Source: Vibrio cholerae
GTDB taxonomy: Bacteria; Actinomycetota; Actinomycetes; Actinomycetales; Micrococcaceae
DNA: 64,000 nucleotides
Reading direction: 5' to 3'
NCBI GenBank assembly: GCA_009728235.1
Contig: WNZI01000012.1
Span: 1-64,000, forward strand
Shown here: in pieces, positions 2,718 to 17,600 of the stretch
How the letters are laid out: each line of letters opens with the position of its first letter
Position numbering within the stretch: the first letter of the stretch is position 1
Notes under the pieces: model-generated
Database searches by the model: none
What the model was told of the DNA's origin: nothing
What the model saw: the letters and a program-made list of their open reading frames with translations, nothing else
Translations under genes and position numbers: made by a program

Positions 2718-2725
2718 CCGAAGTT

Positions 2726-3014: not shown

Positions 3015-3490
3015 ATGATGACCACGCGCGAACCACCGCCCTCAGCTCCGTTTTTCTGACCGGAATCGCTGTCACGGGTTGCACGGCCCAGCCAGCCACG
3101 CAGGAAGCGACAGCGGCACCGACAGAGGCGCTACCGACCCCGATTGAGATTCTTACCCCGGACAGCCGGGAGGACTGCACAACGTCGCTCGAGAAGTCCG
3201 ATGACAGCCTTGAAGACCCAGACCGGGCAACCGTCCGATGCGCCGATAAGACCACCACCGTGGCCAGCACTTTCCGCGATGAGTACACCAACGTCTACGA
3301 TCCGGCGACCGCCTATGACGTAGAGAAGATCATCGTCGTGGGCGGTGAGGTTAGTGCGTGGATCCGCTACGGGGACACCACATGCCTGATCCTGCACGTA
3401 CCAGGGGAACCGGCCACCGCGTGCGAACCCACCCAGCAGCGACAAGCCCCCACCCTGGAGCCGGCCCCAACACCGCCAGTCAAACTGTGA
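3015..3490 (+). pseudogene. secreted lipoprotein, frameshifted at a CG repeat
   Basis: From ATG at 3015 the frame stops after 14 codons. Removing one CG from the CGCGCG run at 3025-3030 joins this start to the long downstream frame. The result is a textbook lipoprotein signal: MMTTR, a hydrophobic stretch (ALSSVFLTGIAV) and the lipobox VTGC. The restored protein would be 157 residues, with a Pro/Thr-rich tail (TLEPAPTPPVKL) and two later cysteines. Function unknown. The alternative is a start further upstream inside the spacer, which would bury the signal peptide and is less likely. Confidence 0.55.
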
Positions 3491-3537
3491 CTGCCGAATC
3501 GACGGAGCAGGAAGCGCCGGCGAGCGGGGGCGGTGGT

Positions 3538-4083: not shown

Positions 4084-4126
4084 GGCGTCCTCCTGTTCTC
4101 AGTATGAGTTGCCGGCGTCAGTAAAG

Positions 4127-4918
4127 CTAACGGCGGGGGTATGCCTTTTTCCTGACGGGTAGGCCGTCAATCTCGTCCAATGTGTCGATCCCGTCAGGCA
4201 TGGGGACTCGATCCTGCCGCGTCCTCATTCTGGCGTCAGCGGCAAGCCTCTCCGATGCCGGAGCGTTTAGATCACGGGAAATCTCGTAGTCCAGGTGAGT
4301 GTCTGTCTTCGCGGCCAGTGACAGCTCGGAGTGCACCTGCACCTCTGTCTGTGGCCCGCCCGGCGGCTTGCCGATGATGTGGACGCCTTTGTACGGATTT
4401 CCTGACACGTAAGTGCTTTCGATCTCGGAGATCTCCCATCCAAGCTCCCTGAGCTGGCGGACCGTCGTGCGGGCCGCGTCGGGGATGGTGTCATGGTCGG
4501 TCACCGCCACCGTGTAGCGCAGCGTGTCCCCCAATCCGGCCACCACGCTTTCGGCTGAGATCTCCCTGCCCTGACCGAACGCGGCCGCTTACTTCGTGGT
4601 GATCTTGCGGGCCAGCGAGGCCGGCGACTTCATACGAAACTCGAGGTCGGCCGCTCGGCCTCCAACGTCGGCGGCGAGCACCCGAACGTCACTGGTGGCT
4701 TTGGGCTCGATGTCGCGCACGGTGGTGATGGCTTTGACGGTCGCGCAGGCCACCTCGGGGCCGCTGTCGTCCCATAGGGCGGCTACGTCGGTTGTGGCTA
4801 CCCATTCAATCGGCGGCACGCCCTCGGGGGCCGGTGGTGCCATCTCAGCAGCGGTGAGGGCACGTAGCGCCCGGCTCTCAGGGCAACGTCTTCCACCTTC
4901 ATCCTGAGACCGACACAC
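4127..4918 (-). pseudogene. RelA/SpoT-fold toxin-like gene, interrupted by TAA
   Basis: Two open stretches lie in one frame: 4918-4589 (109 codons, GTG start, CRSQDEGGRRCP opening common in actinobacterial element proteins) and 4588-4127, separated only by the TAA at 4591-4589. Together they give the RelA/SpoT-like toxin pattern: RMKSPASLARKI (basic R-x-K...S...K segment), then DTLRYTV, YKGVHI, the ExQ motif in TEVQVHSELS, and H-x2-YE at the end. Such domains pyrophosphorylate nucleotides or tRNA in toxSAS and polymorphic toxins. A GTG at 4546 could restart translation, but it would lose the first basic segment. Whole gene 263 sense codons. Inactivation is the simplest reading. Confidence 0.7.
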
Positions 4919-4975
4919 CCGTGCGAATCTAGCGCAAGCAAGGCGCGGGACTGCTCATACTTCGCGGCCAACTAG

Positions 4976-5275
4976 GCTGCACAGGCGCCGGCAAGATCCC
5001 GACGAGCACTAGGAACACGAGCCGGAGGCGCCCGGCCGCCGCCGGTGACTAAGGTGCTGGCGACCGGAGGTGCCCGACGCAGAGCTGGAGACGCCGACCA
5101 CCGACGAGCTACATGAGATCCCGACCAAACGCACCAGGGAGACCAGGCGGCTACGAGGTGAGCCGGCCACGAGCTACACCAGAGGGACAAGACAAAAACC
5201 CGCCCGAGCGAACCGCACGAGCAAAAGACAGCGCCGGCCGTGCCAGCCGTGCCGATCACGAGCTGCACCAAAAAC
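4976..5275. other. GC-rich low-complexity spacer
   Basis: A/G/C-biased DNA with many GACGAGC, GAGCTAC and GCCGGC words and few T on the plus strand. No credible gene. It lies between the RelA-like pseudogene and the end of the par-linked operon. Confidence 0.5.
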
Positions 5276-5281
5276 CCATAG

Positions 5282-5312
5282 ACCTGTATTGCTGTAGATA
5301 CAGGTTTACAGG
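5282..5312. promoter_or_regulatory. CCTGTA/TACAGG repeat cluster, site 1
   Basis: Contains ACCTGTA (5282-5288), GCTGTAG (5291-5297), TACAGGT (5299-5305) and TACAGG (5307-5312). The first and third form an interrupted palindrome. The same words recur upstream of parA at 8049-8094, so this is probably a site for the element's partition or repressor protein. It sits two bases beyond the 3' end of the operon that parA begins. Confidence 0.6.
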
Positions 5313-5313
5313 A

Positions 5314-6276
5314 TTATGACTCTTCCTCAGGGCGCAGCGTCCAAATAGGCCATTTCTGGATCTCGGCTAGCTCATCCTCACCTAAACGACTAGTGCAGTA
5401 GGCGAAATCTTCCGCATCACCGAGGAGAATTGCGCAGGAAGTCTCTACAAGAAGCGGCAGCTCGACCTCATGCTTGATCGCTTCGTCCCTCAGAGAACGA
5501 ATTCCAAATCGGTCGGCCTGGGAAAGTTGCTCATTCCTGAAGGCAATTTGCCACCGGTTTATCTGATGTTGCGCGAGATCTCCTTCCTTTGACAGCAACC
5601 ACTGATTGAGTGCAGAAGCTGCATCTAGAAACTCGGTCTTTCGCAGGTTGACGGCATCGGCGGCATGAATGAGATTGAGCACGGTAGCATTAGCACGCGC
5701 ACCAGCGCCGCTATATTCAAACACGTTGCTGTATGCCTCGACTAAACCGTCGAGGTGCAAATTTAGGATGAATGGAAGTTGTTCGGTCTCCATGAAGTCG
5801 TATGGTGTTACCCTTGTGAACTCGGTTTCACCTTCGTCATCCTCGAAACTCAATGCAAATTGATGCTGCAGCTTCGGATCGAACAAGTCGTTGCACATCC
5901 ATTTTTCTCCCTCACCATTTGGCAGGACGATGAGTTGAAGGTGCCATTTTCCCACTGGTTGTGCAACTCGCCCCATTTCATGATGAGCGCTACTGATGTC
6001 TCTTCCCTGGATCATCACGTCGTATAGGCCGACAAGCTGGCGCCGTCGCTTTTCATCCAGGGAATCCATCTCGATCATACTTGAGTTGACCCCCATTCCA
6101 TCAAATAGGGTCACTAAGCTTTTGAGGTATTCAAAGTGTTCTTGTAGATCCTCGAGGCCAGGGTCTGAGTTGACCTCGAATTTGCTTTCAATACCGTTCA
6201 CTTCAAAGACTGCTGTTTCCATGCATGCGAGGTAGAACCCTAGATCATTGAATCGTTCGCGCAGCGTGGGGGCCAT
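5314..6276 (-). CDS. unknown protein, possibly the C-terminal part of the DUF4365 gene
   Basis: About 320 residues from ATG at 6276 (MAPTLRERF). No domain recognised; acidic, with many aromatic residues and no membrane segment. No Shine-Dalgarno precedes this ATG, and the frame stays open upstream to about 6430, reading VDDRTFELQLSEGLN across the end of the preceding gene. Taking out one CG of the CGCG near 6430 would fuse both into one 612-residue protein. I consider a frameshifted single gene at least as likely as two genes. Confidence 0.5.
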   Translation of the reverse strand: MAPTLRERFNDLGFYLACMETAVFEVNGIESKFEVNSDPGLEDLQEHFEYLKSLVTLFDGMGVNSSMIEMDSLDEKRRRQLVGLYDVMIQGRDISSAHHEMGRVAQPVGKWHLQLIVLPNGEGEKWMCNDLFDPKLQHQFALSFEDDEGETEFTRVTPYDFMETEQLPFILNLHLDGLVEAYSNVFEYSGAGARANATVLNLIHAADAVNLRKTEFLDAASALNQWLLSKEGDLAQHQINRWQIAFRNEQLSQADRFGIRSLRDEAIKHEVELPLLVETSCAILLGDAEDFAYCTSRLGEDELAEIQKWPIWTLRPEEES

Positions 6277-6374
6277 GACCAACGAAACAGAGCCAGAGGA
6301 GAGCAAGGCCGCCGCGGGAGAGGCATCGTCGGCCGCCCCAGGATCGGCGTCGTCAGGGCCAGACAGCTGGATAT

Positions 6375-7154
6375 TCAGCCCTTCGCTGAGCTGCAGCTCG
6401 AAAGTTCGATCGTCAACTCGGCGCGACTTGGGTGGGAGAATTCGAAGTCGCCACTAGCGACAATCAGATCGGTCGGCTTACTGACATATTCTTCCGGGAT
6501 AAGTGTAAATACCTGATCGACGTACACCGATGCCCCGCCCGTAGTTTCGAGAACGAGGCTGAAATCGTAGTTTTTATGATCGAGGGTTAGGGGACCGTTT
6601 ATGTTCAGCTCTCCATCGGTGTAGAGCTTGATCCTACTCAGATCGCCTAGCTGGGTATAGTCGATTCGGGTATTCGGATTTTCGTTTCTGGTTTGTAGTG
6701 CGAGCCTGACGATGTTTTCTATCTTAGGTCGATCAGAGGGCAACGGTTTAATCTGTATCGCAACTGATTTCTTGCTACCCATGTCCTTGATGAGCGCCTG
6801 AATCTTGTACGGATTCAGCAGGATATAGGTGGACTTCCTCGTCCCTGTTTTAGGGTTGATGAACACGACAAAGTAGAGAACACCCTGATTCTTCAAATAC
6901 CCATCAAGGTCGATTCTTGAGATCGAATAGGTTCGCGGAAGATCCTTCCACTTCCCCTTAAAACTCAGTCCTTTTACTTGAACGCTGACACGACCCTCGA
7001 AGTTTGCCTTACTATGCACTTCAGATGACGAATGAACGTCGATGTGCCCATCGGTCAATGGAGTCTTATCGTTCGAGTCAATGACAGGTTCCAGATGAGG
7101 GCATGCGGAAACCATGTCACTTATCTTGTTGGTGGCTTGAAGCTCAATGTTCAT
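6375..7154 (-). CDS. DUF4365-like protein, PD-(D/E)XK nuclease-like
   Basis: 259 residues as read. Residues about 33-130 follow the DUF4365 pattern: DGHIDV, then the strand with VSVQVKG (D...QxK as in PD-(D/E)XK nucleases), SRIDLDGYL and LYFVVFINPKTG. Proteins of this kind occur in restriction-like and defence loci. Cleavage activity is inferred. It starts 12 bases after the RHH gene on the same strand, so it appears to ride on the parA operon. AT-richer than parA. The C-terminus may be a frameshift artefact (see the following gene). Confidence 0.6.
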   Translation of the reverse strand: MNIELQATNKISDMVSACPHLEPVIDSNDKTPLTDGHIDVHSSSEVHSKANFEGRVSVQVKGLSFKGKWKDLPRTYSISRIDLDGYLKNQGVLYFVVFINPKTGTRKSTYILLNPYKIQALIKDMGSKKSVAIQIKPLPSDRPKIENIVRLALQTRNENPNTRIDYTQLGDLSRIKLYTDGELNINGPLTLDHKNYDFSLVLETTGGASVYVDQVFTLIPEEYVSKPTDLIVASGDFEFSHPSRAELTIELSSCSSAKG

Positions 7155-7166
7155 ATGGCTCGCCGC

Positions 7167-7394
7167 TTAGCTAGTGGTGCGCTTACGAACAGCTTCCATT
7201 TCACGGCTGATGCCGCGCATGACGAGCTGCTTCATCGATAGGTCAGCCTGGGCGCATAGAGCTTTCAGCTCCGCGTGCATGGATCGGGGAATGGCGACGG
7301 TCAGTAGCTTTTCGGGCTCGGCCGCGGCCTTCGGTCCAGCCTGCTCTCCTGGTGTGCGCCGGCGGGCTGCTCCCTGACTGAGCGCGGCACTCAT
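7167..7394 (-). CDS. ribbon-helix-helix partition partner of ParA
   Basis: 75 residues from ATG 7394, which has GAAAGAGAA upstream; a GTG at 7415 overlapping the parA stop is the longer alternative. A short disordered head is followed by KLLTVAIPRSMHAELKALC and a helix pair ending in REMEAVRKR, the RHH/CopG-like pattern (beta strand, helix, turn, helix). Placed immediately after parA, it is the probable centromere-binding partner and may bind the palindromic cluster at 8049-8094. Confidence 0.65.
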   Translation of the reverse strand: MSAALSQGAARRRTPGEQAGPKAAAEPEKLLTVAIPRSMHAELKALCAQADLSMKQLVMRGISREMEAVRKRTTS

Positions 7395-7414
7395 AGGGTT
7401 CTCTTTCGCTGGCA

Positions 7415-8008
7415 CTACCGAGCACCCCCAGCCAACAGCTCATCGAGTACAGCCGAGTACGGGCCGAGGTGGCTGATCCTCTTGCCGTGCGCGAGGGCCA
7501 GCTCTTGCGACTGGGGCACTTCCGATTCCATGACCGTGAGGCCGGCGTCTACCAGGGCGGCACGTGTCTCCACCTGCGCCCTCATGCGCTTGATAACGCG
7601 GGTCAGCAGGATCATCACCCGCAGGTCAGTGGCTACGGCGATGTCGTCAGCGAGGGAGAGCGTTTCGGCCAGCGAATTGAGGTCAGCCGAGGTCGGCTGA
7701 GCGGGGATGACGAGCGTGTCCACGGCACGCATGGCCGAGGAGACGATGCCGAGATCCCCGGGCGGAGTGTCGATCACGACGTGCTTGCCGGCCCCGAGCT
7801 GGTCGACCTGGCGGTGAATAGTTTTCGTCGGCAGGGACACCGTGAGCCACGGGAAATCGGCCTGCTCTGCCCAGCGCAGCGCCGAACCCTGCGGGTCGGA
7901 GTCGATGAGTACAACCTGCTCACCCCTGTCTGCCAGTCCAGCGGCTATATAGGTGGCGGAAGTGGACTTACCCACCCCACCTTTCAGTCCTCCAAAAGCT
8001 ACGCGCAT
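7415..8008 (-). CDS. parA: ParA-family partition ATPase
   Basis: 197 residues. The deviant Walker A box KGGVGKST is at residues 9-16; VVLIDSDPQGSA and VVIDTPPGDLG give the Walker A' and B segments. The small size, without an N-terminal HTH, fits type Ib plasmid ParA proteins. Shine-Dalgarno AAGGGG lies eight bases before the ATG. Its TAG overlaps the GTG of the RHH gene. It implies active segregation of a low-copy replicon, so this region was, or is, a plasmid or plasmid-derived element. Confidence 0.9.
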   Translation of the reverse strand: MRVAFGGLKGGVGKSTSATYIAAGLADRGEQVVLIDSDPQGSALRWAEQADFPWLTVSLPTKTIHRQVDQLGAGKHVVIDTPPGDLGIVSSAMRAVDTLVIPAQPTSADLNSLAETLSLADDIAVATDLRVMILLTRVIKRMRAQVETRAALVDAGLTVMESEVPQSQELALAHGKRISHLGPYSAVLDELLAGGAR

Positions 8009-8048
8009 GATGCCCCTTCATAGCTGCCGGTCAAGTGCCGCCCACCCT

Positions 8049-8094
8049 ACCTGTAGAACTGTAGACCTGTATATACAGGTCTATAGGTATACAG
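8049..8094. promoter_or_regulatory. perfect 22-bp palindrome and CCTGTA repeats upstream of parA
   Basis: Positions 8062-8083 form a perfect palindrome with half-site TAGACCTGTAT. Extra copies of the core flank it: ACCTGTA at 8049, CTGTAG at 8059 and TATACAGG at 8087-8094. It lies 40-85 bases upstream of parA and shares its words with the cluster at 5282-5312. Likely a partition site or operator. Confidence 0.7.
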
Positions 8095-8242
8095 GCAGCG
8101 GAACCGCCCAGGCGCGGGAGAGTGAGCGCAGCGCCTGGGCGCTTGCGGCGGGGACATGACAATACGCACGGCGGTCGAGCAGGGCGGTGTGAGCGGGGCG
8201 TGGTTGCTCCGTCGAGGCGTTGTCTAGTCCGTACTTGGCGGG

Positions 8243-8267
8243 CTAACTCTAGGGGGGCGAGAGTTAG
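8243..8267 (+). promoter_or_regulatory. inverted repeat CTAACTCT-N9-AGAGTTAG
   Basis: Eight-base arms separated by nine bases, ending five bases before the ATG of the next gene. Seven bases of each arm recur at 11565-11589, again just upstream of an element gene. Could be an operator or an RNA hairpin over the ribosome binding site. Confidence 0.55.
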
Positions 8268-8271
8268 GAAC

Positions 8272-8602
8272 ATGACCTACCAACCAGCCCCGGAAACACC
8301 CACCACGATCATCGAATGGCTGAGCCAGCTCAGCACTTTTCACGTCGATGAGTTCCACGGGTTCCTGATGATCTCGCCGCTCCTGCCGCAGTCGGAAAGG
8401 GCGGCAGCCTGACACGCCCGAGCTGACGGGCACCTGGAGGATGCAGACGAGTTGATCCGGGAGGCCGCGGCTTACCTGGGGGCAGAACCCGGAGATGGCT
8501 CGGGCACTCATGGACGGTGTGCAGATCCGTCTGGCAGCCGCGCAGCAGTGCACCCGCATGGGCCAGTTCCAGGCAGCCATGCACGCCCACCACAGCGAGT
8601 AG
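8272..8602 (+). pseudogene. small element protein gene, stop and frameshift
   Basis: ATG at 8272 gives 46 codons (MTYQPAPETPTTIIEWLSQL...) to a TGA at 8410. The same frame stays open beyond it (DADELIREAAAYLG). Removing one G from the GGGGG run at 8478-8482 continues it as QNPEMARALMDGVQIRLAAA to a TAG at 8600. The continuous helical pattern suggests one gene of about 110 codons that has decayed, or two overlapping small genes. Function unknown. Confidence 0.45.
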
Positions 8603-8708
8603 GGGCACCCGAGGTCCGCATCGACCAAATGCGGACCCCAGCAGACCGTGAGGTGCGCACGGAGCAAGAGCAAAAACAATCGCTAAGCATCGAACGAAAG
8701 GCACGACC

Positions 8709-9104
8709 ATGACTGAATTCTGGGATAACGCGGAAATCATCCACACCTACACCCGCGCGGAGGCAATCACCGATGGCGTGCTCGTGGACGCCGGCACCGT
8801 GGCTCGTGAAGCAGGTTTCGCGTACCCGGTCGCACTGACTATTGCGGCGTGGTCCGAGGCTGTCACCTGGACGCCAGGAAACCAGGCTTACCAGGATGAG
8901 GCCGGCCGACTGTGGGACGTGCTGACGATGGCGGCACACGCGGCCCGCGCTCGCGCTGACAGCGACCGCCGCCGGTTCCGCGTGCTGCGCGTACCCAACC
9001 GCCCCCGCACGACCGCGGCCCGCTTGCTGGAGCTAGAAATGCACATCGGCCCCGGCGACGACGGCGACCCGGTAATCACCATCGGCCTGCCCGGACAGGA
9101 CTGA
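8709..9104 (+). CDS. DUF6573 family protein
   Basis: 131 residues. The start (IIHTYTRAEAITDGVLVDAG, then REAGFAYPVALTIAAW) is the signature of DUF6573, a family seen mainly on actinobacterial plasmids and phages with no known biochemical role. GAAAGG lies seven bases before the ATG. Soluble, with an arginine-rich middle (RARADSDRRRFRVLRV). Supports a plasmid origin for the region. Confidence 0.75.
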   Translation: MTEFWDNAEIIHTYTRAEAITDGVLVDAGTVAREAGFAYPVALTIAAWSEAVTWTPGNQAYQDEAGRLWDVLTMAAHAARARADSDRRRFRVLRVPNRPRTTAARLLELEMHIGPGDDGDPVITIGLPGQD

Positions 9105-9109
9105 GAATA

Positions 9110-9247
9110 ATGTATCTAGCCCACCTCGAGCAGTACGCCGCACCGATCACCGAGGCGGAAGCACCGGCCCCAATGGTTCCCCTAGACCCCTCGGCCCCAT
9201 TGGGGCCTCTGGCCCTACGGGGGACAAGACGCAGGGGCTGGGGGTAG
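9110..9247 (+). CDS. possible small protein
   Basis: 45 codons starting five bases after the DUF6573 stop (MYLAHLEQYAAPITEAEAPA...), ending in a basic tail. Only AGAATA precedes the ATG, so translation is uncertain. The later half overlaps a CCCCATTGGGG-type inverted repeat and may be non-coding. Confidence 0.25.
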   Translation: MYLAHLEQYAAPITEAEAPAPMVPLDPSAPLGPLALRGTRRRGWG

Positions 9248-9278
9248 TCATTAGTCCCAATGGCGCTAGGCTCCAGCA

Positions 9279-9902
9279 ATGACTCAGGACGATGGCAAGA
9301 CACCAGGTGAACCTGAGCCAAAGGGGAGCAGCGCCGAGGAAGAGCGTGACGAGTTATCGGACCCCCCGCGTTCCATGAGGGTCAAACGCTTCAAGGAGCT
9401 GGCCGCTCTGGAGAAGCAAGGGAAGCTCGAAACGGTAGGCGAGCAGGAAGTCCGCCAGTACCAGTCGTTCAAACAATCGTTTTCAGAGATGGCGGCAAAG
9501 GTATTAGCGACGCTGCAAGTCAAGGACAAGGACTTCCATGCAACCGTGGATCAGATTGCCGCCTACCAGAACTTCAAGCCGGAGATGCCGCCGATACCGG
9601 AGGTCGAGCTGACCAACCACAACGAGGGCATGGAGGACAGGCTAGAAGCGGTCATAGGTGCGCTCGCTGAGCAGCGTGAGCAGGACAAGATCAACGCGAA
9701 GTACCTCCAGGTCATGGCTGGCACGCTAACCGAGATCAAGGCATCCCGGGAGCTAGCCACACGCCGGCAGGTTGAGCAGGAAACGGTTCACCGGGAGCAG
9801 GAGAGATTCAACCGCCGAATGTCGTGGACAGCCCTCATCGTCGCGAGCGTCACCCTGGTCTCGGGGATCATCATTCCCCTGGTCACAGCAGCTCAAGGGT
9901 AG
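9279..9902 (+). CDS. coiled-coil protein with one C-terminal membrane helix
   Basis: 207 residues. A charged soluble part (residues 1-175) rich in Glu, Lys and Gln, with likely coiled coil at 105-175, is followed by one hydrophobic helix (WTALIVASVTLVSGIIIPLV, about 181-200) close to the C-terminus. This is a tail-anchored layout. No known domain. Its stop is followed by 350 bases with only a possible tiny ORF. Could be the membrane partner of an element-encoded function. Confidence 0.6.
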   Translation: MTQDDGKTPGEPEPKGSSAEEERDELSDPPRSMRVKRFKELAALEKQGKLETVGEQEVRQYQSFKQSFSEMAAKVLATLQVKDKDFHATVDQIAAYQNFKPEMPPIPEVELTNHNEGMEDRLEAVIGALAEQREQDKINAKYLQVMAGTLTEIKASRELATRRQVEQETVHREQERFNRRMSWTALIVASVTLVSGIIIPLVTAAQG

Positions 9903-9977
9903 GGCGGGATCCAACACACCCACGGACACGAACCAACCCCGGCCTTAAGATCCAGTACCCCTAGAAGGATCAGCGTA

Positions 9978-10118
9978 ATGGGGACAGTGGAGGTATTAGA
10001 AGTGCTTCCGCTGTGCAACCGCTTGGAAGTAGTAGCACCGTTAGGGCCATCAGTGGCAAGGGAAGCATTGCGGGTGCCTGCGAGACCGTCAGGGAGAAAC
10101 CACGAGGGCTTCCACTGA
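9978..10118 (+). CDS. possible small protein
   Basis: 46 codons (MGTVEVLEVLPLCNRLEVV...) with AGAAGGA seven bases before the ATG. No similarity recognised. Its codon use (several GTA and TTA) differs from the GC-rich neighbours. It ends inside the hairpin at 10103-10135. Confidence 0.25.
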   Translation: MGTVEVLEVLPLCNRLEVVAPLGPSVAREALRVPARPSGRNHEGFH

Positions 10119-10135
10119 ATCAACGGGAGCCCTCG
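10103..10135. terminator. hairpin, possible terminator
   Basis: CGAGGGCT (10103-10110) pairs with AGCCCTCG (10128-10135) across a 17-base loop. It lies between a rightward and a leftward gene, but no U-tract follows. Confidence 0.35.
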
Positions 10136-10252
10136 GGCCACTGAGCATCTGGCACAACGCAAGGCGGAAAATCGCGAAAAAAACCCCTCACGCAATGCCC
10201 CAGCATCAGCGGGCGCAAGGCCTGCGACCAAACCGAACTCGCGCAGCTCAGA

Positions 10253-10747
10253 CTATCGGACCCTTTTGCGCGAGACCGACGACTGCCTGCTGCGCCACAG
10301 CGAGCCTGACAACCACCCCAACAGGAAACCCAGCCATGCGCGCGCTCGCAGCAACTCTTGCCCAGGTGGCACCGTGCTCTGGGTAGTAGCAGAGGGAATC
10401 GTTGTCGGCGCTTCAATTGGAGTTGGTTCCGTTGATGAGTCGCTTCCCCATTTTCGCTCCCTCGCCGTAGCAGCAAGCCACACGACCGTTGAGATCATCA
10501 GCGAAGCTCCCGCCAGCATCACAATCATATCTGTCGTGACACTCCGTTCCTCTGTTATCACCAGCATGATGCAGCTCAAAGTGGCGCTAAGAGCCATCAG
10601 CTGGGAGACGTATCGAAACAAATCCATCGCTCGAACAAAACGCTGAGGAAAGAATCCGTTAGAGCTATGACGGCCTTCTACAGCAAGTGCAATAAGGATG
10701 GTCGGAAAAATTTGTGCGAGAAGAGCAGCAGCGGCAGGGGTAATCAT
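10253..10747 (-). CDS. small membrane protein, second of a pair
   Basis: 164 residues with three likely membrane helices: residues 5-25 (ALLAQIFPTILIALAV), 47-65 (SQLMALSATLSCIMLVI) and 74-92 (MIVMLAGASLMISTVVWLA). A soluble Thr/Pro-rich tail and an amphipathic C-terminal helix follow. Its ATG overlaps the stop of the upstream gene (ATGA), so the two are translationally coupled. No domain recognised. AT-richer than the backbone genes. Confidence 0.55.
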   Translation of the reverse strand: MITPAAAALLAQIFPTILIALAVEGRHSSNGFFPQRFVRAMDLFRYVSQLMALSATLSCIMLVITEERSVTTDMIVMLAGASLMISTVVWLAATARERKWGSDSSTEPTPIEAPTTIPSATTQSTVPPGQELLRARAWLGFLLGWLSGSLWRSRQSSVSRKRVR

Positions 10748-11223
10748 AATATTTTTGATTCTATTGTCTTGTCGGGGGAGGTGGAGTCCTCCTTCTTACT
10801 AGGCTTTACCAATGATGGAACTACCAGTATTAGAAGCGTAAATACTATTGTCGCCAAGAAAGCCATTCCAACCGACAACCAAGTGAACCAGCTACCATTG
10901 ATCGCCGCGCCTACGACAGACACGACTAAGCCAGAAATGCCCAATACCAGAGAGCCGAATCGGCGCGTCTTCTCAAAGTCTTGAACTCGTATCAGGTTCA
11001 ATTTCTCAAGGGGAATTAGACTTAGAAGAGTCGCGACTATCGCAAGCGTTGCGCCGAATAGAGACAGAAAGATACCTAGTTGCGCACCTTCAAGGATAGA
11101 CAAACAGATCTCTTGTGCAGCTGAATCCAGCCCTGTTATACCACCATCCTCACTGCCGCTAATTTGCTCGGTGAGTGTACTTTTAGTGTCCGCTAAGCAA
11201 GATGCGACCCATTTTTCGTCCAT
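10744..11223 (-). CDS. membrane protein, first of a pair
   Basis: 159 residues. An N-terminal soluble head (residues 1-45) is followed by three to four membrane helices: IFLSLFGATLAIVATLLSLI, LVLGISGLVVSVVGAAI and a helix pair at WFTWLSVGMAFLATIVFTLL. The charged C-terminal tail is cytoplasmic by the positive-inside rule. No family recognised. It forms an overlapping two-gene unit with the next protein. AT-rich cargo in a GC-rich setting suggests a separate acquisition. Confidence 0.55.
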   Translation of the reverse strand: MDEKWVASCLADTKSTLTEQISGSEDGGITGLDSAAQEICLSILEGAQLGIFLSLFGATLAIVATLLSLIPLEKLNLIRVQDFEKTRRFGSLVLGISGLVVSVVGAAINGSWFTWLSVGMAFLATIVFTLLILVVPSLVKPSKKEDSTSPDKTIESKIL

Positions 11224-11280
11224 TGGTAGATAGTGGCACAGAGATTTACCGCTTAGGTTGCTGAACTGGCCCTACTGAGC

Positions 11281-11530
11281 TTGGTGTTCCTCGGTGCCGG
11301 CGCTGGGGGCCGGCGGGGGAGATCCGCGGCTCGGTGGGTTGTCGTCTTGCCCCCTCGGGCGCCCTGGTCGGCGCCGGCTGGCTGGCTGCACCTCGGTGCC
11401 GGCGCGGCCGGCTGGAGCCTAGTGGATCCATGGCCGGCGGTTGTCCCGGTCGCCGGCGTGAGCTGGTGTGCCTGGTGGTTCCGTGGGCGGCGAGCTGGGC
11501 CAGTCTGGGGAAGCTGGTGGTCGGCGTTGG
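11281..11530. other. GC-rich low-complexity spacer
   Basis: G/T/C-biased on the plus strand, with repeated GGTGCCGGCG, GCCGGCTGG and GAGCTGG words. Open frames here give Gly/Trp/Ala/Val-biased translations and are not credible. It separates the leftward membrane-protein pair from rightward element genes. Confidence 0.5.
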
Positions 11531-11564
11531 CGCGTCGAACGTGTATCTAGCTGTACTAGACCAA

Positions 11565-11589
11565 CTAACTCAACGCTGGCTAGAGTTAG
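11565..11589 (+). promoter_or_regulatory. inverted repeat CTAACTC-N11-GAGTTAG
   Basis: Same seven-base arms as the repeat at 8243-8267, spacer two bases longer, 38 bases before the next ATG. The repetition before two unrelated small genes suggests a shared regulator or promoter element. Confidence 0.5.
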
Positions 11590-11626
11590 GTTATTAGACC
11601 AGCCGTCCCGCCGTAGGAGAATCGCT

Positions 11627-12132
11627 ATGACCATCGAAGTAACTACCACCACCGCCCAGGCCGCAAAGCACGCCACCCGCGCTTTCGCCCAGGCAATCTC
11701 CCTGGACGAGGCAGACCTCAGCGCCGAGCAGGTAAAGCGCTCGCCAGCGACCTGCGCGAGATCCTAGTCAGCGCACGGCAGGCCCTCCGCGTGATCGAGT
11801 ACGCGGCGCCCGACGACACCACAGCATCCGATCTGCGCGACGCCAAGTACTCCGCAGCAGCCGCCGTCCGCAGCCTCTTCCACGCCTACCAGGCGCCCCT
11901 GTCGGCCACCACCGCAGTCACGCCCGCCGATGGCATCACCGTCATCACGAAGGCCACGGAGATCGAAGCCCTCGCCCACGGCCGGGAGCTGATCGTGGAC
12001 GGAACCGTGTTCAAGGTCAGCCGCACGGACGGATGCCAGACCTACGTGCGCGACCTGCCCGGCATCGACTTCATGCACCCGGCCCAGTTCATCGAAATGT
12101 TCCGCGAGGCCGGCATCCTGATCCGCAGCTAA
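11627..12132 (+). pseudogene. element protein of unknown function, frameshifted
   Basis: ATG 11627 has GTAGGAGA nine bases upstream. It reads MTIEVTTTTAQAAKHATRAF and onward, but runs to a stop at 11765-11767. A second frame carries on without break from 11740 (LASDLREILVSARQALRVIE...) to 12132. One added base, or loss of one GC in the GCGC at 11737-11740, restores about 167 residues. The C-terminal half (HGRELIVDGTVFKV, PGIDFMHPAQFIEMF) looks like an intact small domain. Function unknown. Confidence 0.5.
11722..11740 (+). repeat. 19-bp direct repeat shared with 12634-12652
   Basis: An identical 19-base segment (core GAGCAGGTAAAGCGC) occurs at both places. Both copies are read as AEQVKR near the end of an open frame. 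This may reflect recombination between two element genes or a conserved peptide motif. Confidence 0.7.
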
Positions 12133-12254
12133 TCCCCCGGGCGGCGCTGCAACGAGCCGCCCGGTGACCAACCCAACCGACGAACCACAACCGGCCCTTG
12201 TTTCATTTGCGCAAGCGCCCATTGTGAAAGTGACTACTCAGAAAGGCTCAACCT

Positions 12255-12676
12255 ATGCCCACCGCAGCAGAAACACGCCAAGCAGAAATCGACCTGCACC
12301 CGAGCATCAAAGACACCATCGACTACATCAACGAATACGCCTGGCGGGCCACGAAGATCGCCAGAGGCCCAGAGGCCCAGAGGCTCGTGCGAGCGTCGTA
12401 GGCACTAACGAAGATGACGCCGAACAAGCGAGCCGGCAACATTCCGAACTGGTTGCACTCGCCCAGGCCCAGGCCACACTGGCGCTCGCAGAGGAGACCA
12501 GGACCGCCGCGCTCGTGGCATACCTGGCAACGCTCGGCAGGGGAAACCGCCATAGGGCGGCAGTGGAGCGGGAGGTGCAGATCAGGCTGAGACTCATCGA
12601 CCCCAAACCGGCCCGCACGCGCCCCATAGCGACCGCCGAGCAGGTAAAGCGCGAACCAGTAAACGGCACCTCCTAG
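12255..12676 (+). pseudogene. element protein, out of frame through an 8-bp repeat
   Basis: ATG at 12255, with AGAAAGG upstream, gives 48 residues (MPTAAETRQAEIDLHPSIKD...) to TAG 12399. Deleting one of the three CCAGAGGC units at 12361-12384 makes the frame continuous to 12676, giving 137 residues (...KIARGPEARASVVGTNED...). The body then has a long Ala/Gln/Glu helix (ALAQAQATLALAEETRTAAL) and a basic tail. Function unknown. With three repeat units the gene is off or truncated; with two it would be on. Confidence 0.55.
12361..12384 (+). repeat. 8-bp tandem repeat, three units
   Basis: CCAGAGGC occurs three times head to tail inside the coding frame of the preceding entry. Eight is not a multiple of three, so each gain or loss of a unit changes the frame. 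Confidence 0.9.
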
Positions 12677-12689
12677 AAAGAAAACTCCC

Positions 12690-13340
12690 ATGACGAAGAC
12701 CAGCCCCGCTTATGAGAACGTGCCGGCCGAGATCCCCATCGCGTTCAGCCTGAACGAAGCCGCGCAGCGCGTCGGCATGAACCCCGCCTACTTCCGCACC
12801 ACCATGACCAAGCTCAACGCCGGCGGCCGCGACCTCCGCACCCTCGCCCAACCAGGAGAACGCGCCCGCAAGTACGACGTGGACAAGCTCGACGCCTGGA
12901 AGGCCGAAGGGCTCCCCGTACCCAAGGACTCCCTCCGCGTCCCCCAGGCCAAGCCTGGAGCCCGCGAGATCGCCGCCACCGCCACCCGCAAGGGCTCTCA
13001 CTGGATCGTGGACCTTCCCGAAATCGGTCAAGGCACCCAAACCGAGAACCTGCGCAACGCCCACCGGGTCTCCCACGCGCTCGCCGTCGAAAATCTGGGC
13101 GTCTCCTCTGACGAAGTAACCGTGAACCTCACCATTGCCCTACCCGCGGACGCCGCCCAGAAGTGGGACGAAGCGAAGTCGCGGGAGCGAGAGGCCCGGG
13201 AAGCCGCCGCACTGGCCTCCAACCTCAGCCGTGAGGTCGTCCGAGATCTCAAAGCGCAGGGATTCACCTTCCAGGACATCGGTGAGGTGCTGGGCATCAG
13301 CATGCAACGAGCGCAGCAGCTCGGCCAGGACGCCCGCTAA
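12690..13340 (+). CDS. HicB-like protein with N-terminal and C-terminal DNA-binding helices
   Basis: 216 residues. Residues 15-75 resemble an excisionase-type helix-turn-helix (FSLNEAAQRVGMNPAYFRTT... KYDVDKLDAWK). Residues about 100-155 have the HicB antitoxin pattern (GSHWIVDLPEIGQGTQ... ALAVENLGVSSDEV). The C-terminus is a sigma-region-4-like HTH (LSREVVRDLKAQGFTFQDIG, then GISMQRAQQL). A DNA-binding regulator is likely; no HicA partner is visible. AGAAAGAAAAC precedes the ATG. Intact, unlike its neighbours on both sides. Confidence 0.65.
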   Translation: MTKTSPAYENVPAEIPIAFSLNEAAQRVGMNPAYFRTTMTKLNAGGRDLRTLAQPGERARKYDVDKLDAWKAEGLPVPKDSLRVPQAKPGAREIAATATRKGSHWIVDLPEIGQGTQTENLRNAHRVSHALAVENLGVSSDEVTVNLTIALPADAAQKWDEAKSREREAREAAALASNLSREVVRDLKAQGFTFQDIGEVLGISMQRAQQLGQDAR

Positions 13341-13341
13341 G
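13317..13341 (+). repeat. 25-bp direct repeat, left copy
   Basis: Identical to 13897-13921 over 25 bases (ends in CGCCCGCTAAG). This copy is the last codons and stop of the HicB-like gene (QLGQDAR). Confidence 0.85.
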
Positions 13342-13394
13342 TACCTCATCGCTTTGCCGTGGGCAACCGAACGCCACCAGACAGGGAGAACGGG

Positions 13395-13873
13395 TTGAGC
13401 TACGTAGTAGATCTGGCAGAGCAAGTGGCCCGCGCAACGCACAAAGGACAAGTGGACAAGACCGGGCACCCCTACATCGAGCATCCGGCCCGCGTCGCCC
13501 AAGCTGCCGCCGCAGCAGCTCCTGAGGGCATCAGGGACGCGGTATGCGCCGTCGGGTGGCTGCATGACGTAGTGGAGGACACGGGGACCGGCATCGGTGA
13601 CTTACGCACCCTCGGTTTCTCCGAGGAGATCCTGGCAGGAGTGGAGGCGATGACCAAAAAATCAGGGGAAGCTCCCGAAACCTACTTCGCTTAGAGTGCG
13701 CGCCGATCAGCTAGCTCGCCTGGTCAAAGCCGCCGACATCGAGGACAACACCAACCCCGAACGGGTCGCGCTGCTAGATGCTGGCCCGCGAACGTCTGGC
13801 CGTGAAGTATCAGCGGTCGCGTGAACTTCTCCATGCCGCCGACGATGCTCCCGGGCAAGCTCACCAGGGCTAA
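13395..13873 (+). pseudogene. HD-domain (p)ppGpp hydrolase-like gene, two frameshifts
   Basis: TTG at 13395 has GGGAG about seven bases upstream; GTG 13359 is an alternative. The frame reads a MESH1/SpoT-type HD domain: ATHKGQVDKTGHPYIEHP, WLHDVVEDT, MTKKSGEAPETYF. It stops at 13692. One base out at the TT restores RVRADQLARLVKAADIEDN (the later metal-site Asp), and a second shift near 13780 restores LARERLAVKYQRSRELL to TAA 13871. Family members remove the 3' pyrophosphate of alarmones. The metal-binding H...HD...D set is present in the DNA but split among three frames. Confidence 0.65.
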
Positions 13874-13896
13874 ACCGCAGGGCCGTCGAGCCTCAA

Positions 13897-13921
13897 CAGC
13901 TCGGCCAGGACGCCCGCTAAG
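13897..13921 (+). repeat. 25-bp direct repeat, right copy
   Basis: Second copy of the 13317-13341 sequence, not in a gene here. It looks like the remains of the 3' end of a duplicated HicB-like gene. The two copies bracket the HD pseudogene. Confidence 0.85.
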
Positions 13922-13981
13922 CGCCTTCCCACCCCCAAGACACACCTACAGCCCGGAAAGCCTCCCAGGCCCTCCAGCGGC

Positions 13982-14230
13982 CTACCGCCGCCGTTCAGCT
14001 TGTGATTCTTCGAGCGGACGGCGGCGTACTTTGTCCGGCCGCAGCCACTTGTACGCCGGCAGGCTCCGCTCGACGTACTGCACGTACACCGCGTGCGGCG
14101 TCCATTTTTGCGCGAACGCCTTCACCGTCCACCCCACACCATCCGGGTACACCAGGGCCGCCCACACCGCGATTCCCGCCTCCGGCTCCGTGATCTTTTC
14201 GGGGTCGATCTCAGCCGGATCCACGCTCAC
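13982..14230 (-). CDS. small element protein of unknown function
   Basis: 82 residues from GTG 14230 (VSVDPAEIDPEKITEPEAGI...). The core AVWAALVYPDGVGWTVKAFA and a very basic tail (RPDKVRRRPLEESQAERRR) suggest a real nucleic-acid-associated protein. It overlaps the end of the next small ORF, which is upstream on the same strand. The two may once have been a single gene. Confidence 0.45.
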   Translation of the reverse strand: MSVDPAEIDPEKITEPEAGIAVWAALVYPDGVGWTVKAFAQKWTPHAVYVQYVERSLPAYKWLRPDKVRRRPLEESQAERRR

Positions 14231-14309
14231 CGCCGCGCCGCGCCAACGCCTCCAGCCGCTCCCTCGCGGCAATGAACCCGTACTCATTCGTGTATCTACC
14301 CGTAGGCAT
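14211..14309 (-). CDS. possible 32-residue protein or 5' part of the following gene
   Basis: MPTGRYTNEYGFIAARERLE... from ATG 14309 to TGA 14211. The peptide looks protein-like, and its stop overlaps the GTG start region of the downstream gene by 20 bases in another frame. That is compatible with coupling or with a frameshift in one larger gene. Confidence 0.3.
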   Translation of the reverse strand: MPTGRYTNEYGFIAARERLEALARRGGERGSG

Positions 14310-14418
14310 CACCGAAACCCCGGCATCCATCGCGGGAACTGGGTACGACTCGCAGCCGCAGCCCAAGCACTAATTAGCGGGACTCGACCACCGCGCAGAA
14401 GCGGATAGCCCTGATGAT

Positions 14419-14769
14419 TCAGAATCCCCCCAAGTCGTCAAGAAATTTTTGAATTAACATCTCGTTCTCGACGGTATTTCCACTTGCGACCTCATAAAGC
14501 TGTTGCAACTCTTCTTTTATAGCCTCTGATTCTGAGATAGACCCGAGATCCGAGTCACCGTTAAGGAAACCAATTTCCTTACCGTCGGAATTTAATAGAG
14601 ACAGTTCCGTATTTCGAGTTCGAGCGGTTTGGCTCACCACAGCGCTTACTTGCGTAGAAGAAAACATATAACGATTCTTACCGGCCCTCTTCCATTCTAT
14701 TCTATCCATTTTACTGCGGTGCAACAATCTCTGTAAAACCAGGCGCAGCGCCCTATTATTTTCACTCAT
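14419..14769 (-). CDS. unknown protein, second of a pair
   Basis: 116 residues, soluble, basic N-terminus (LQRLLHRSKMDRIEWKRAGK) and acidic C-terminal half (SISESEAIKEELQQLYE). No domain recognised. It overlaps the end of the upstream membrane protein gene by 8 bases. Strongly AT-rich codon use compared with the chromosome. Likely works with the membrane protein. Confidence 0.5.
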   Translation of the reverse strand: MSENNRALRLVLQRLLHRSKMDRIEWKRAGKNRYMFSSTQVSAVVSQTARTRNTELSLLNSDGKEIGFLNGDSDLGSISESEAIKEELQQLYEVASGNTVENEMLIQKFLDDLGGF

Positions 14770-15286
14770 TCGTCAATATCCCTTCAACCACGTTTTGACC
14801 GAGACTGCCGAACGACCCGGTCACATCCTGAACAACTTTCATGAAATACGAACCCTCTGAACGTAGATCAACATCACTGCCGTTTGTAACTATAGAGTTA
14901 CTAGCAATACCTGCAGTGGCAATTGAGTCTTGAAGCTTTCGCATCAATTCCTTGTACTCATCACCATCCCTTGCTGATAGAACTTGCTTCAACTGACCTG
15001 CGTTTGCCTTCCATTGGCTACAGAGGTTAACAAAAAGAGCCGTCTCTCCATTTACTGTTGCATTAATTAATTCGCTTTCAAGTGCCGTCATTTTTATCGT
15101 CAACGTCAAAGACGATGCTTGTTGTAAACTTCGGACAGCCTTTGCGGCAGTATCTGAAACGGCTTCAGTAGCATGCCGAGTTTTCTTTAGCTGACCAAGC
15201 GCAATGATGAAACCGACTAACGCAAAAGGAATTGCGAAGAGCCCATTAAACCGATCTATAAAAATCCACAACTCAACCTCACTCAT
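14762..15286 (-). CDS. membrane-anchored protein, first of a pair
   Basis: 174 residues. One N-terminal membrane helix (residues 13-31, NGLFAIPFALVGFIIALGQL) is followed by a long helical soluble part (KKTRHATEAVSDTAAKAV...) in the cytoplasm. AGGAG precedes the ATG (AAGGAGTGTAG). No family recognised. With the next gene it forms a compact AT-rich unit, a layout common among small cargo modules. Any defence role is a guess. Confidence 0.55.
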   Translation of the reverse strand: MSEVELWIFIDRFNGLFAIPFALVGFIIALGQLKKTRHATEAVSDTAAKAVRSLQQASSLTLTIKMTALESELINATVNGETALFVNLCSQWKANAGQLKQVLSARDGDEYKELMRKLQDSIATAGIASNSIVTNGSDVDLRSEGSYFMKVVQDVTGSFGSLGQNVVEGILTNE

Positions 15287-15354
15287 CTACACTCCTTCTC
15301 AGCTACACCCTGGGATAAGAGCGTTCATGCCCATCAAATCTTGCATCGAGACCC

Positions 15355-15624
15355 TCACACTCCTGATTCTCCAACCTTGTGAGCCGCACGGTTGGCGCGC
15401 GCCCGGTCCGTCCTGGAGGCCGCGTAGCCACGAAACCATGCGGTCTGCCGTTCAAGGCTCTCGGCACTCTCGCGTGTGTAAGGGTTACCCCTGAATGACT
15501 CGCCTGCGAGGTAGGCGCGGTATCCGGCCCGCTGAATCTCCATCGTCTCGTTGCGACCGATCAGACTCTCGGTCGGTCGCTGAGTGGGTTCGTCGGTGGG
15601 TTCGTCAGTAGTTTCGGTTGGCAT
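15355..15624 (-). CDS. ribosome modulation factor (RMF)-like small protein
   Basis: 89 residues from ATG 15624, with AAGGA eight bases upstream. After a Thr/Glu/Pro-rich head, the core AGYRAYLAGESFRGNPY... AESLERQTAWFRGYAASR has the RMF/CrpP arrangement: G-x2-A-x2-A/S-G, an N/C-P-Y turn, then W-x2-G-[YW]. RMF proteins bind ribosomes in stationary phase; phage and plasmid relatives exist. The ribosomal role here is inferred. It starts 10 bases after the chimeric AraC gene. Confidence 0.5.
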   Translation of the reverse strand: MPTETTDEPTDEPTQRPTESLIGRNETMEIQRAGYRAYLAGESFRGNPYTRESAESLERQTAWFRGYAASRTDRARANRAAHKVGESGV

Positions 15625-15634
15625 GTTCCCATCC

Positions 15635-17014
15635 TTACGTGCGGTTGCGGTAGGACGCCTTAAAGTCGGAATCCCAGCCGAACATTCCATAACGGAACGA
15701 TGCCAGGGACTGCCGCCCGTTGACGGCGAACCATGCGTTCAGCTCCTCGGAGCCGTACTTTTTCACCCGTGACACCGGCCCGGTGAACAGGCTGTCCATG
15801 CTGATCCCGGCGGCCCTGCCCTTCTCGTTGAGATGGAAGGACAGCTCCGACTCGCATTTGGAGATCTGGCTGTAGACGTAACTGTCGTACTCCTCGCGGG
15901 CCACCTCGTGCGGGGTCAGTTTCCGGGTAGCGCGCAGCGTGGGATTGCTGACGTGATCGCCCTCACCGTAGGGCGGTTCGGCCTCCTGCCACGCGGAAGA
16001 ATCGTTGTCCTCCCCACCCTCCTCGGCCTCGCGGGCGTCCACGAGCTCCTCGAGTCTTTCCATCGCCTCGGGGTCGTCCGCGTGCCGTTCGTACAGGTCG
16101 GAAACCTCGTCCCAGGACAGCTCCCGGATGGACTCGGCCGTGAGGCTGTCCGCTGCGCTCGGGCGCGGTGCCGGCAGGGCTTGGTGCTCGGTCGGCTCGT
16201 GTCCGCCGGCACTGTCCAGGGCGCTCTCCGGCAGTTTCGCTCCGGCCCGTCCGATGTCGGGGATGGCGTGCTGCTCGCGTTCTCCCAGCCGCTCGCACGC
16301 CTGAAAGTAGTTGCCCATCGTCCGGGCCATTTTCGCGTCGGATGCGCCCTGGTGTTCGAGCCTGTCCAGCCTCTGCTCGAATCGGCGCACCGAAGTCTTT
16401 GCCACTGCCACGGCCGCCACGGCGCAGAGCTGTGCGACCGTGACCAGGTCGGTGCGTGCTTCGACGAGAGCCACGATGCGCTCGATGAGCTCACCCTCCG
16501 GGTCGACGGGCAGCAGCGGACGAAGAGCGTCGCCGAACGCATCCATCACGGCCCGGTGCGCCCCCGGCAGCTGCGGGTCCTCGGACATCGCTGCCCGGAC
16601 CCGGTCGGTCAACTCCTCACCCGACCGGCCGAGCACGTCGGACACGTCGACGTGGCGGTCGGTGAACCGGGCCATCGGACCCCGAGCGATGAGCGAGCCG
16701 GCGGCCGCGGTGCACATGACGCCTGCTGCCCACCCCTTGCCGGTCAGTACGGTCTGCGACAGCCCGGTCGCGACGCCGTAGAAGCGGGCGTAGTCCGGAG
16801 CGATGACAAGCAACGACACCGGGTACTGCATGACCCGCTGCACGGACTGCTCGCCGGCAGGGACGGACCAGACAGGTATCCAGAACCGCTGCACGAGGCT
16901 CGCGATCGCGGCCGGAGCCGGATACCGGAACATGACGTGGGAGACGTCGTCGGCGGCCTTGAGGTGAGCCCGCTCGATCTCGTCCAGAACACGCGGTGCT
17001 GTGTCGGGTTCCAT
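15635..17014 (-). CDS. chimeric gene: AraC-type sensor domain fused to element protein
   Basis: 459 residues from ATG 17014. Residues 1-198 are the sensor part of an actinobacterial AraC-family regulator: FRYPAPAAIASLVQRFW, VQRVMQYPVSLLVIAPDYAR, AAAGSLIARGPM and LLPVDPEGELIERIVALVE, ending at VAQLCA, where the AraC helix-turn-helix should begin. Instead the frame continues into sequence unlike AraC: a coiled segment (SVRRFEQRLDRLEHQG), an acidic linker and a compact end domain (SELSFHLNEKGRAAGISM... RYGMFGWDSDFK) of unknown function. The promoter and sensor are chromosomal, the tail comes from the element. It cannot bind DNA as AraC proteins do. Confidence 0.7.
   Translation of the reverse strand: MEPDTAPRVLDEIERAHLKAADDVSHVMFRYPAPAAIASLVQRFWIPVWSVPAGEQSVQRVMQYPVSLLVIAPDYARFYGVATGLSQTVLTGKGWAAGVMCTAAAGSLIARGPMARFTDRHVDVSDVLGRSGEELTDRVRAAMSEDPQLPGAHRAVMDAFGDALRPLLPVDPEGELIERIVALVEARTDLVTVAQLCAVAAVAVAKTSVRRFEQRLDRLEHQGASDAKMARTMGNYFQACERLGEREQHAIPDIGRAGAKLPESALDSAGGHEPTEHQALPAPRPSAADSLTAESIRELSWDEVSDLYERHADDPEAMERLEELVDAREAEEGGEDNDSSAWQEAEPPYGEGDHVSNPTLRATRKLTPHEVAREEYDSYVYSQISKCESELSFHLNEKGRAAGISMDSLFTGPVSRVKKYGSEELNAWFAVNGRQSLASFRYGMFGWDSDFKASYRNRT
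16390..16430. other. junction between accessory DNA and chromosome
   Basis: Codon by codon, AraC similarity ends at about 16,421. The right boundary of the accessory region is placed here from the protein pattern alone; no attachment-site repeat could be identified because the other end is outside the window. Confidence 0.6.
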
Positions 17015-17051: not shown

Positions 17052-17600
17052 ATGAACACCACAGCCATCGCCTATCGGACCGCTCTCCGCCCCCTCTCCC
17101 TCGTTCTCGACGCGGTTCCTGCCGAGGCATGGGCCAACCCTTCGCCCTGCACCGGATGGACCGCACGTCACGTCGTCGCACACATGATCGACACGCAGCG
17201 GGACCTGCTCACCGATCACGACCTCGACCTCGGGCCTGCCCTCGACCTGACCGATCCTGCTGCGGCGTTCCAGGCCCACGCCGAACGAGTGTCGGAGCTG
17301 GTGGGCCGTGACGACGTCACGGGCGTCACCTATGACGGCTTCTTCGGACCGACGACCGTGGGGGCGACCCTGGAGCAGTTCTACGTCTGGGACATGCTCG
17401 TCCACAGGTGGGACATCGCCCGAGCCACAGGTGGGAACGAGGCCATGTCCTCGGACGAGCTGGACCGCATCGAGACCGGGGCCGACAGCTTCGGCAGCGC
17501 GCTGCACATGGACGGTATCTGCGGACCGGCCCTGCCCGTCCCGTCCGACGCCGATCGGCAGACCCGGCTCCTGGGCCGGCTCGGCCGGCGCGCCCCGTGA
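17052..17600 (+). CDS. TIGR03086-family DinB-like metal protein
   Basis: 182 residues. N-terminal ALRPLSLVLDAVPAEAWANP and CTGWTARHVVAHMIDTQRDL (with the first metal-binding His) are typical of the TIGR03086 branch of the mycothiol-dependent maleylpyruvate isomerase/DinB superfamily; YVWDMLVHRWDIARATG supplies the second His-containing helix. Such proteins are thought to use mycothiol, but the substrate is unknown. It is divergent from the broken AraC gene, an arrangement often seen between these two families, so the lost regulator may have controlled it. Confidence 0.75.
   Translation: MNTTAIAYRTALRPLSLVLDAVPAEAWANPSPCTGWTARHVVAHMIDTQRDLLTDHDLDLGPALDLTDPAAAFQAHAERVSELVGRDDVTGVTYDGFFGPTTVGATLEQFYVWDMLVHRWDIARATGGNEAMSSDELDRIETGADSFGSALHMDGICGPALPVPSDADRQTRLLGRLGRRAP

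Follow-up and report, generated by a model that had tools for sequence, protein, structure and literature searches.

How does the gene of an AraC-type regulator come to run on without a stop into plasmid-like coding sequence at the point where its DNA-binding domain should begin, and what has become of the rest of it? The question arises in the window, by which we mean the whole 64,000-nucleotide stretch that was analysed. A sequence-only reading of it had proposed that an accessory element ends inside araC, that 198 residues of sensor domain stop where the HTH should start, and that the same frame carries on for about 260 codons of element-type protein. As judged from the sequence, the araC gene of an Arthrobacter is split by a 17.65-kb piece of plasmid DNA. 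The features around the break are the following.

15355..15624, minus strand: small Rmf/CrpP-like gene, next after the tail gene (weak Pfam RMF match, below the cut-off; tblastn matches to L013 and L014)
15635..16420, minus strand: plasmid-type gene fused in frame, 261 codons, here called the tail (tblastn to plasmid records, alignment, annotation)
16418..16423, no strand: junction between chromosome and element (blastn boundaries against L003, L004 and L017; both junction sequences)
16421..17014, minus strand: N-terminal sensor half of the AraC-type regulator, DUF6597, 198 aa, start ATG 17014 (Pfam PF20240; three intact relatives at 74-76% identity)
17052..17600, plus strand: divergent gene of the TIGR03086 (mycothiol-dependent isomerase) type (TIGR03086 match at the cut-off; divergent neighbour in 29/32 loci)

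The hybrid frame (window 15635-17068, minus strand) encodes 477 aa, or 459 aa when counted from the ATG at 17014, with 198 of these derived from AraC. Pfam placed DUF6597 (PF20240; E = 6e-12) in its N-terminal half and found no AraC HTH (HTH_18, the C-terminal double HTH) in the hybrid, although this domain is present in the intact orthologues and on C43, a second contig of the same genome. HTH_18 of an intact orthologue starts three residues ahead of the cut, so that the proposed end of the sensor domain was right to within 3 aa. DNA similarity to the intact araC genes of three relatives (L003, L004 and L017; blastn) ends at position 16420, in agreement with an element that ends inside araC and in frame with it. 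The protein matches of L002 (78% identity) and L003 (76%) stop at residue 216 counted from the ATG at 17068, which is residue 198 from the ATG at 17014; the best protein segment of L004 continues past the junction at lower identity, and its DNA similarity nonetheless ends at 16420.

With the whole hybrid as query, matches were obtained in 8/38 genomes of the genus, the source genome included. Of the other seven, three were close intact orthologues, 74-76% identical and with open frames 289-314 codons long; the remaining four were distant (35-40%). No match among the seven extended beyond residue 233 of the hybrid. Close relatives therefore carry the uninterrupted araC whose presence had been suggested as a check, with homology breaking at 16420. 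The fusion itself was not detected in the other 37 genus genomes or, at full length, in the other 395 genomes of a sample of the order.

The missing half was located past the other end of the element, where the sequence-only reading had advised looking for it. When the C-terminal half of an orthologue was used as the query, it matched C43:1249-1515 at 81% identity in a frame open to 1536, while the remaining three matches in the genome were only 31-36% identical. Bases 1-1246 of C43 do not belong to araC. An intact araC was not detected in the genome, the N-terminal half occurring only in the window and the C-terminal half once at high identity, on C43; the claim that the hybrid was cut off from its DNA-binding domain thus holds both in the Pfam result and in the position of the missing half. 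In all 32 intact orthologues compared, the two halves are colinear with no residue missing between them; these came from a scan of named genomes in which 32 of 70 pattern stretches encode a relative, and the absence of a gap was read by eye from the coordinates. The two junctions have at most 3 bp (CCG) in common, and no araC base has been lost.

The two contigs meet as follows.

1..21, minus strand: end of the window contig, the reverse complement of which equals the first 21 bases of C43 (exact 21-base overlap)

This 21-mer occurs at only these two places in the genome, even when two mismatches are allowed. Given this unique and exact match between the contig ends, we take the whole insert to be assembled. 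The order is then the araC N-terminal half, the window from 16420 down to 1, C43 from 22 to about 1246, and the araC C-terminal half, giving an insert of about 17.65 kb (16,420 bp on the window contig and about 1,225 bp on C43). Beyond the araC C-terminal half, no match to the gene at C43:1533-2159 or to TerC was obtained in the 33 loci examined; gene order 3' of araC is not conserved across these loci and gives no support to the insertion.

All three frames leaving the junction are open, for 151, 167 and 261 codons, and since each stays open for at least 151 codons, an in-frame join is about a one-in-three event. The stop-free length is weak evidence for anything, and the in-frame fusion is probably a chance product. 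A selected, functional fusion is not supported, as all three frames are open and none of the relatives searched has it.

We found full-length relatives of the tail in three plasmid records (tblastn), two from Paenarthrobacter (51.7% identity) and one from Glutamicibacter, pGnB68 (45.1%), which bears out the 260 or so codons of element-type protein: there are 261, with plasmid homologues along their whole length. The Paenarthrobacter homologue has 19 extra N-terminal residues that carry the motif CRxxxxGxRRCPxHxN (alignment). pGnB68 also encodes this motif in frame, just ahead of the start annotated for its homologue, and that start falls at the tail's first residue. The tail gene has likely lost its first 19-20 or so codons, going by the Paenarthrobacter start and the upstream in-frame motif of pGnB68. 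The motif is not encoded in C43:1-1248. On both plasmid records that were opened (Paenarthrobacter and pGnB68), the tail homologue is followed by the Rmf-like gene in the same order as here.

More distant relatives of the tail were also recovered. The Paenarthrobacter homologue as query found partial relatives, MuF-type and other proteins, in 58 phage records. In the order sample the tail matched 5/396 genomes, including the source; the other four matches were partial (residues 168-249, E = 6e-11 to 2e-5). A search of the tail against a collection of genome contigs gave 49 pattern matches, none of which was confirmed. Elsewhere in the window (4127-4918, minus strand), two adjacent ORFs match consecutive parts of phrog_7625 (phage head morphogenesis) and probably represent a broken gene, whose start carries CRxxxxGGRRCP, resembling the motif of the tail homologues. 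A motif of this type may mark an N-terminal module common to mobile elements of actinobacteria.

Further features of the element are listed here.

1..16420, no strand: element body on the window contig (composition; Pfam and other libraries on subsets of ORFs)
7415..8008, minus strand: ParA-like partition ATPase (phrog_164; 65% identical to a Frigoribacterium plasmid ParA)
8709..9104, plus strand: DUF6573 protein (a counterpart on the Paenarthrobacter plasmid has 46% identity)
12690..13340, plus strand: HTH-like protein (Pfam matches below the cut-off; a counterpart on the Paenarthrobacter plasmid has 44% identity)

The GC content of the element body is 58%, against 68.5% in the chromosomal part. 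The Pfam scan covered 28 element ORFs, namely 25 of the 42 window-side ORFs of at least 100 aa and three on C43, and PHROGs, NCBIfam and PADLOC were each given subsets of the element ORFs. None of the ORFs scanned was recognised as an integrase, transposase, relaxase or Rep. The hallmarks of an element moved by a site-specific recombinase were not seen, there being no integrase or transposase in the scanned ORFs and at most 3 bp in common between the junctions. The FtsK-like transfer gene of the relative plasmids, used as a query, gave only a weak match in the element; megablast of window 1-16600 against plasmids yielded no lead, and neither did pattern and profile searches of viral contigs (30 pattern matches in the profile search, none confirmed). 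Within the element, two ORFs at window 5314-7154 (minus strand) match positions 8-163 and 276-578 of the 584 of phrog_9827, a family without known function, which points to a split or frameshifted gene.

At the far end of the insert, on C43, bases 1-1230 are 73% GC without codon periodicity, and degenerate repeats run along much of C43:1-1100. The last 110 nt before a run of C can form four hairpins with 48 paired bases, a combination matched by 0/426 chromosomal windows, 0/149 element windows and 0/2,000 shuffled sequences. When the background was enlarged to 438 kb (7,921 windows, each overlapping the next by half), six windows equalled the array, 24 had at least four hairpins, and two combined four hairpins with a GCTNCGC-type apex. 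The DNA folding of the array has a z-score of -3.4 relative to shuffles. Its outermost hairpin, read inwards, is GGTGC-TCC-GCACC with a GCTNCGC centre, and the palindrome that carries the motif at its apex, GGTGCTCCGCACC, was compared with the left end of pAL1 and both ends of pRHL3; the three further hairpins have 4-base loops. Ten bases separate the array from the C-run and 26 from araC DNA. The run itself, 16 C at C43:1233-1248, falls exactly at the second junction and is the sole run of at least 14 C in the 3.75-Mb genome. Up to two of its 16 C may belong to araC; the run may in part be native, may have expanded, or may reflect a sequencing or assembly error at this join.

One study describes GCTXCGC as typical of actinobacterial invertrons, while its abstract and methods print CGTXCGC (PMC7276702). 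Streptomycete telomere hairpins usually have loops of three or four bases, GAA, GGA and GTA being the commonest, according to another (PMC8743542), and the outer loop of the C43 array is GGA in the 3'-end orientation. The far end, the only one of its kind in the insert, resembles a linear-plasmid (invertron) telomere, a likeness of structure and of a 6-base motif that was picked after the sequence had been seen. Of the five real telomeres that we compared, each starts with CC and four carry the motif at 20-22, whereas the C43 end would begin with a G-run; a run of 16 C such as the one here was seen in none of them. Under a strict test (four hairpins plus the apex motif) only the left end of pAL1 passes, the right end of pAL1 and the left end of pGnB68 failing on the apex, and none of the five reaches 48 paired bases.

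Searches for DNA homologues of the far end gave no convincing match, only short or weak ones, and Rfam found nothing on C43:1-6000. In searches run without a positive control, a pAL1-type Tap gene was found neither in this genome nor, when the pGnB68 homologue served as query, in the 38 genus genomes; a captured fragment would not need Tap. Telomeres of the SCP1 type may begin with a G-run. We suggest tentatively, with rather more doubt than belief, that a linear-plasmid telomere was joined end-first into the interior of a Micrococcaceae chromosome and has been kept there as an interstitial telomere. Were this the case, protein-capped ends could be stripped and ligated by bacterial end joining. 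The homopolymer would then either represent a G-run native to telomeres of a new class or have been added without a template, at unusual length.

How, then, did the insert arrive? The account we favour, and to which we would give close to an even chance, is that Ku/LigD end joining captured the arm of a linear plasmid at a break in the chromosome; here we infer both the end joining and the identity of the telomere. A double-strand break would have arisen in araC and been healed by Ku/LigD, with a broken linear-plasmid arm captured in the process. The broken side of the arm, lying in a plasmid gene probably left without its first 20 or so codons, would have been joined to the sensor half, and the telomere, stripped of its terminal protein, would have been joined through the C-run to the DNA-binding half. 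With the first join in frame by chance, the araC promoter would express a sensor-plasmid hybrid devoid of a DNA-binding domain, and the AraC HTH half would have been left 17.65 kb away, behind element DNA.

End joining fits better than enzymatic integration because the plasmid gene is probably broken, the far end is telomere-like, no recombinase was recognised among the ORFs scanned, the junctions have no more than 3 bp in common and araC has lost no sequence. The genome has a Ku match (C3:143430-143957) and, 745 bp away, a LigD polymerase match (C3:144702-145457); given that Ku occurs in 36/38 genomes of the genus, its presence here is ordinary. In Streptomyces ambofaciens, healed breaks had acquired inserted DNA in five cases, from 30 bp to 18.8 kb long, and 40% of scars showed added nucleotides, either one untemplated base or a fill-in of 1 to 4 (PMC5869714). 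The run of 16 C is far longer than the additions given there, which counts against end joining.

We weighed this account against three others. A circular plasmid or other mobile element may have been integrated by site-specific recombination or transposition, through a recombinase that acted in trans, was lost or went unrecognised, in which case the hairpins would be an attachment site, an origin or a terminal structure. The insertion is indeed clean, with araC complete and 3 bp or fewer common to the junctions; ParA and several small genes are plasmid-like, the relative plasmid of Paenarthrobacter is recorded as circular, and the tail gene may be untruncated if, as annotated in pGnB68, it starts at the first residue of the tail. 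We nevertheless regard such an integration as unlikely, as no recombinase was found among the scanned ORFs and the two ends, compared by eye as printed, have no obvious terminal inverted repeat. Integration of a circle cut within its own gene also predicts that the N-terminal motif of the tail homologues should turn up at the other end of the insert; we sought it there without success, the frame at that end (..AEHRRSCPPPPP) being only loosely similar.

A circular plasmid may equally have supplied a fragment that was captured illegitimately, the hairpin array being an internal feature, such as an origin or a partition site, that happened to lie at the break. The evidence for plasmid origin and for end joining applies to this explanation just as well, and an origin or a partition region could likewise contain the degenerate repeats seen in much of C43:1-1100. 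It would leave to chance, however, both the closeness of the array to the C-run (10 bases) and to araC (26) and the telomere motif on its outermost hairpin, and we think it improbable to a similar degree. As for the misassembly of plasmid and chromosome that the sequence-only reading had allowed for, the draft is in 117 contigs (3.75 Mb), the unique C16 at one junction is suspicious, and the gene order 3' of araC on C43, absent from the 33 compared loci, gives no independent support to the join. An artefact would nevertheless require contigs to have been misjoined twice, independently, at one and the same araC base, in a genome where each half of the gene was found once, the C-terminal one on C43, with the halves colinear and no intact copy detected, and where the two parts of the element meet at a unique 21-mer; we consider it highly improbable.

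Capture of a linear-plasmid arm has several partial precedents. The NHEJ scars of S. ambofaciens resemble this one in that blocks of 30 bp to 18.8 kb were inserted at healing sites, and Ku and LigD are present here too; there, the inserted DNA was derived from the genome itself, large deletions were present in some survivors, and additions were single untemplated bases or fill-in of 1-4, whereas here the DNA is of plasmid type, araC loses nothing, and there is a run of 16 C together with one telomere-like end (PMC5869714).

Paenarthrobacter ureafaciens plasmid unnamed3 and Glutamicibacter nicotianae pGnB68 both have the tail homologue and then the Rmf-like gene, as here, and unnamed3 has DUF6573 and HTH homologues in common with the element; on both plasmids, unlike here, the gene is unfused and retains the N-terminal CRxxxxGxRRCPxHxN segment, and transfer genes are annotated. 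pGnB68 (NZ_CP142605.1) encodes a Tap/terminal-protein pair 39-40% identical to that of the linear plasmid pAL1, and its left end looks like a real telomere. It could not serve as a fully closed linear record, since its right end stops inside an integron integrase, without hairpins, and is therefore not a telomere; sequence is probably missing from the record there.

Linear plasmids pAL1 (Arthrobacter) and pRHL3 (Rhodococcus) have in common with C43 hairpins near the end and a GCTNCGC-centred outer hairpin, in pAL1 at the left end only (18-32) and in pRHL3 at both ends. They differ in having no recognisable identity with C43 over the end sequences compared, and C43 carries a G-run where they have a CC end; the pAL1-type Tap gene was not found in this genome. 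The linear plasmids SCP1 and pPZG101 have reportedly integrated into, or exchanged ends with, Streptomyces chromosomes. The likeness lies in linear-plasmid DNA being joined to, or exchanged with, a chromosome; the difference is that those chromosomes belong to Streptomyces, whereas here a 17.65-kb arm lies within a Micrococcaceae gene, with an apparent telomere in the interior. Integration of linear-plasmid DNA into chromosomes is known for Streptomyces, and one feature is unusual here. The locus has the look of an accident of DNA repair, and not of a novel type of system. Among open-licence papers on integrated linear plasmids and interstitial telomeres, to the extent of their available text, we found no case like this one, Micrococcaceae included. 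If the proposed origin is true, the locus would be a sequenced scar of linear-plasmid DNA entering a chromosome without homology or integrase, with the telomere identifiable at the join, and would offer a testable case for gene capture driven by Ku/LigD and for the fate of protein-capped ends. When genes are called across a scar of this sort, the fusion proteins that result are convincing and yet accidental.

The break also touches the gene next to araC. The ATG of the TIGR03086 gene lies 37 bp from that of araC, and the divergent pair occurs in 29/32 orthologous loci, or 29/31 of those in which the neighbour is visible; the three without a TIGR03086 match are L051, which has only 174 bases upstream and is unjudgeable, L064 and L066. 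This pairing of an AraC protein (DUF6597) with TIGR03086 is conserved from Arthrobacter to relatives in Geodermatophilus, Tsukamurella and Mycolicibacterium. Because the pair has been kept in 29/32 loci of several actinobacterial genera, AraC probably controls the TIGR03086 gene, which is its likely target. That this gene had lost its regulator, as proposed earlier, is accordingly plausible, and we infer from the interrupted frame that AraC control has probably been lost here; the conserved pair is marked out as one whose regulation is testable. A scan for promoters and terminators across window 15300-17300 gave nothing. The hybrid may be translated from its predicted frame. On C43 the HTH half likewise continues an element frame, from an ATG at 1048 (162 aa; HTH_18 at E = 2e-21), and it is conceivable, as speculation, that a free DNA-binding half is made from it.

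Two further observations concern the genes near the ends of the contigs. At window 248-2665 (minus strand), a Schlafen/AlbA_2 protein adjoins a protein weakly similar to the STM4504/CBY_0614 family and to a PADLOC candidate, and the two are possibly a defence pair close to the telomere-like end. On C43, the gene at 1533-2159 resembles those of membrane proteins and overlaps the end of araC by ATGA; it was maybe once co-translated with araC and would now be severed from the araC promoter.
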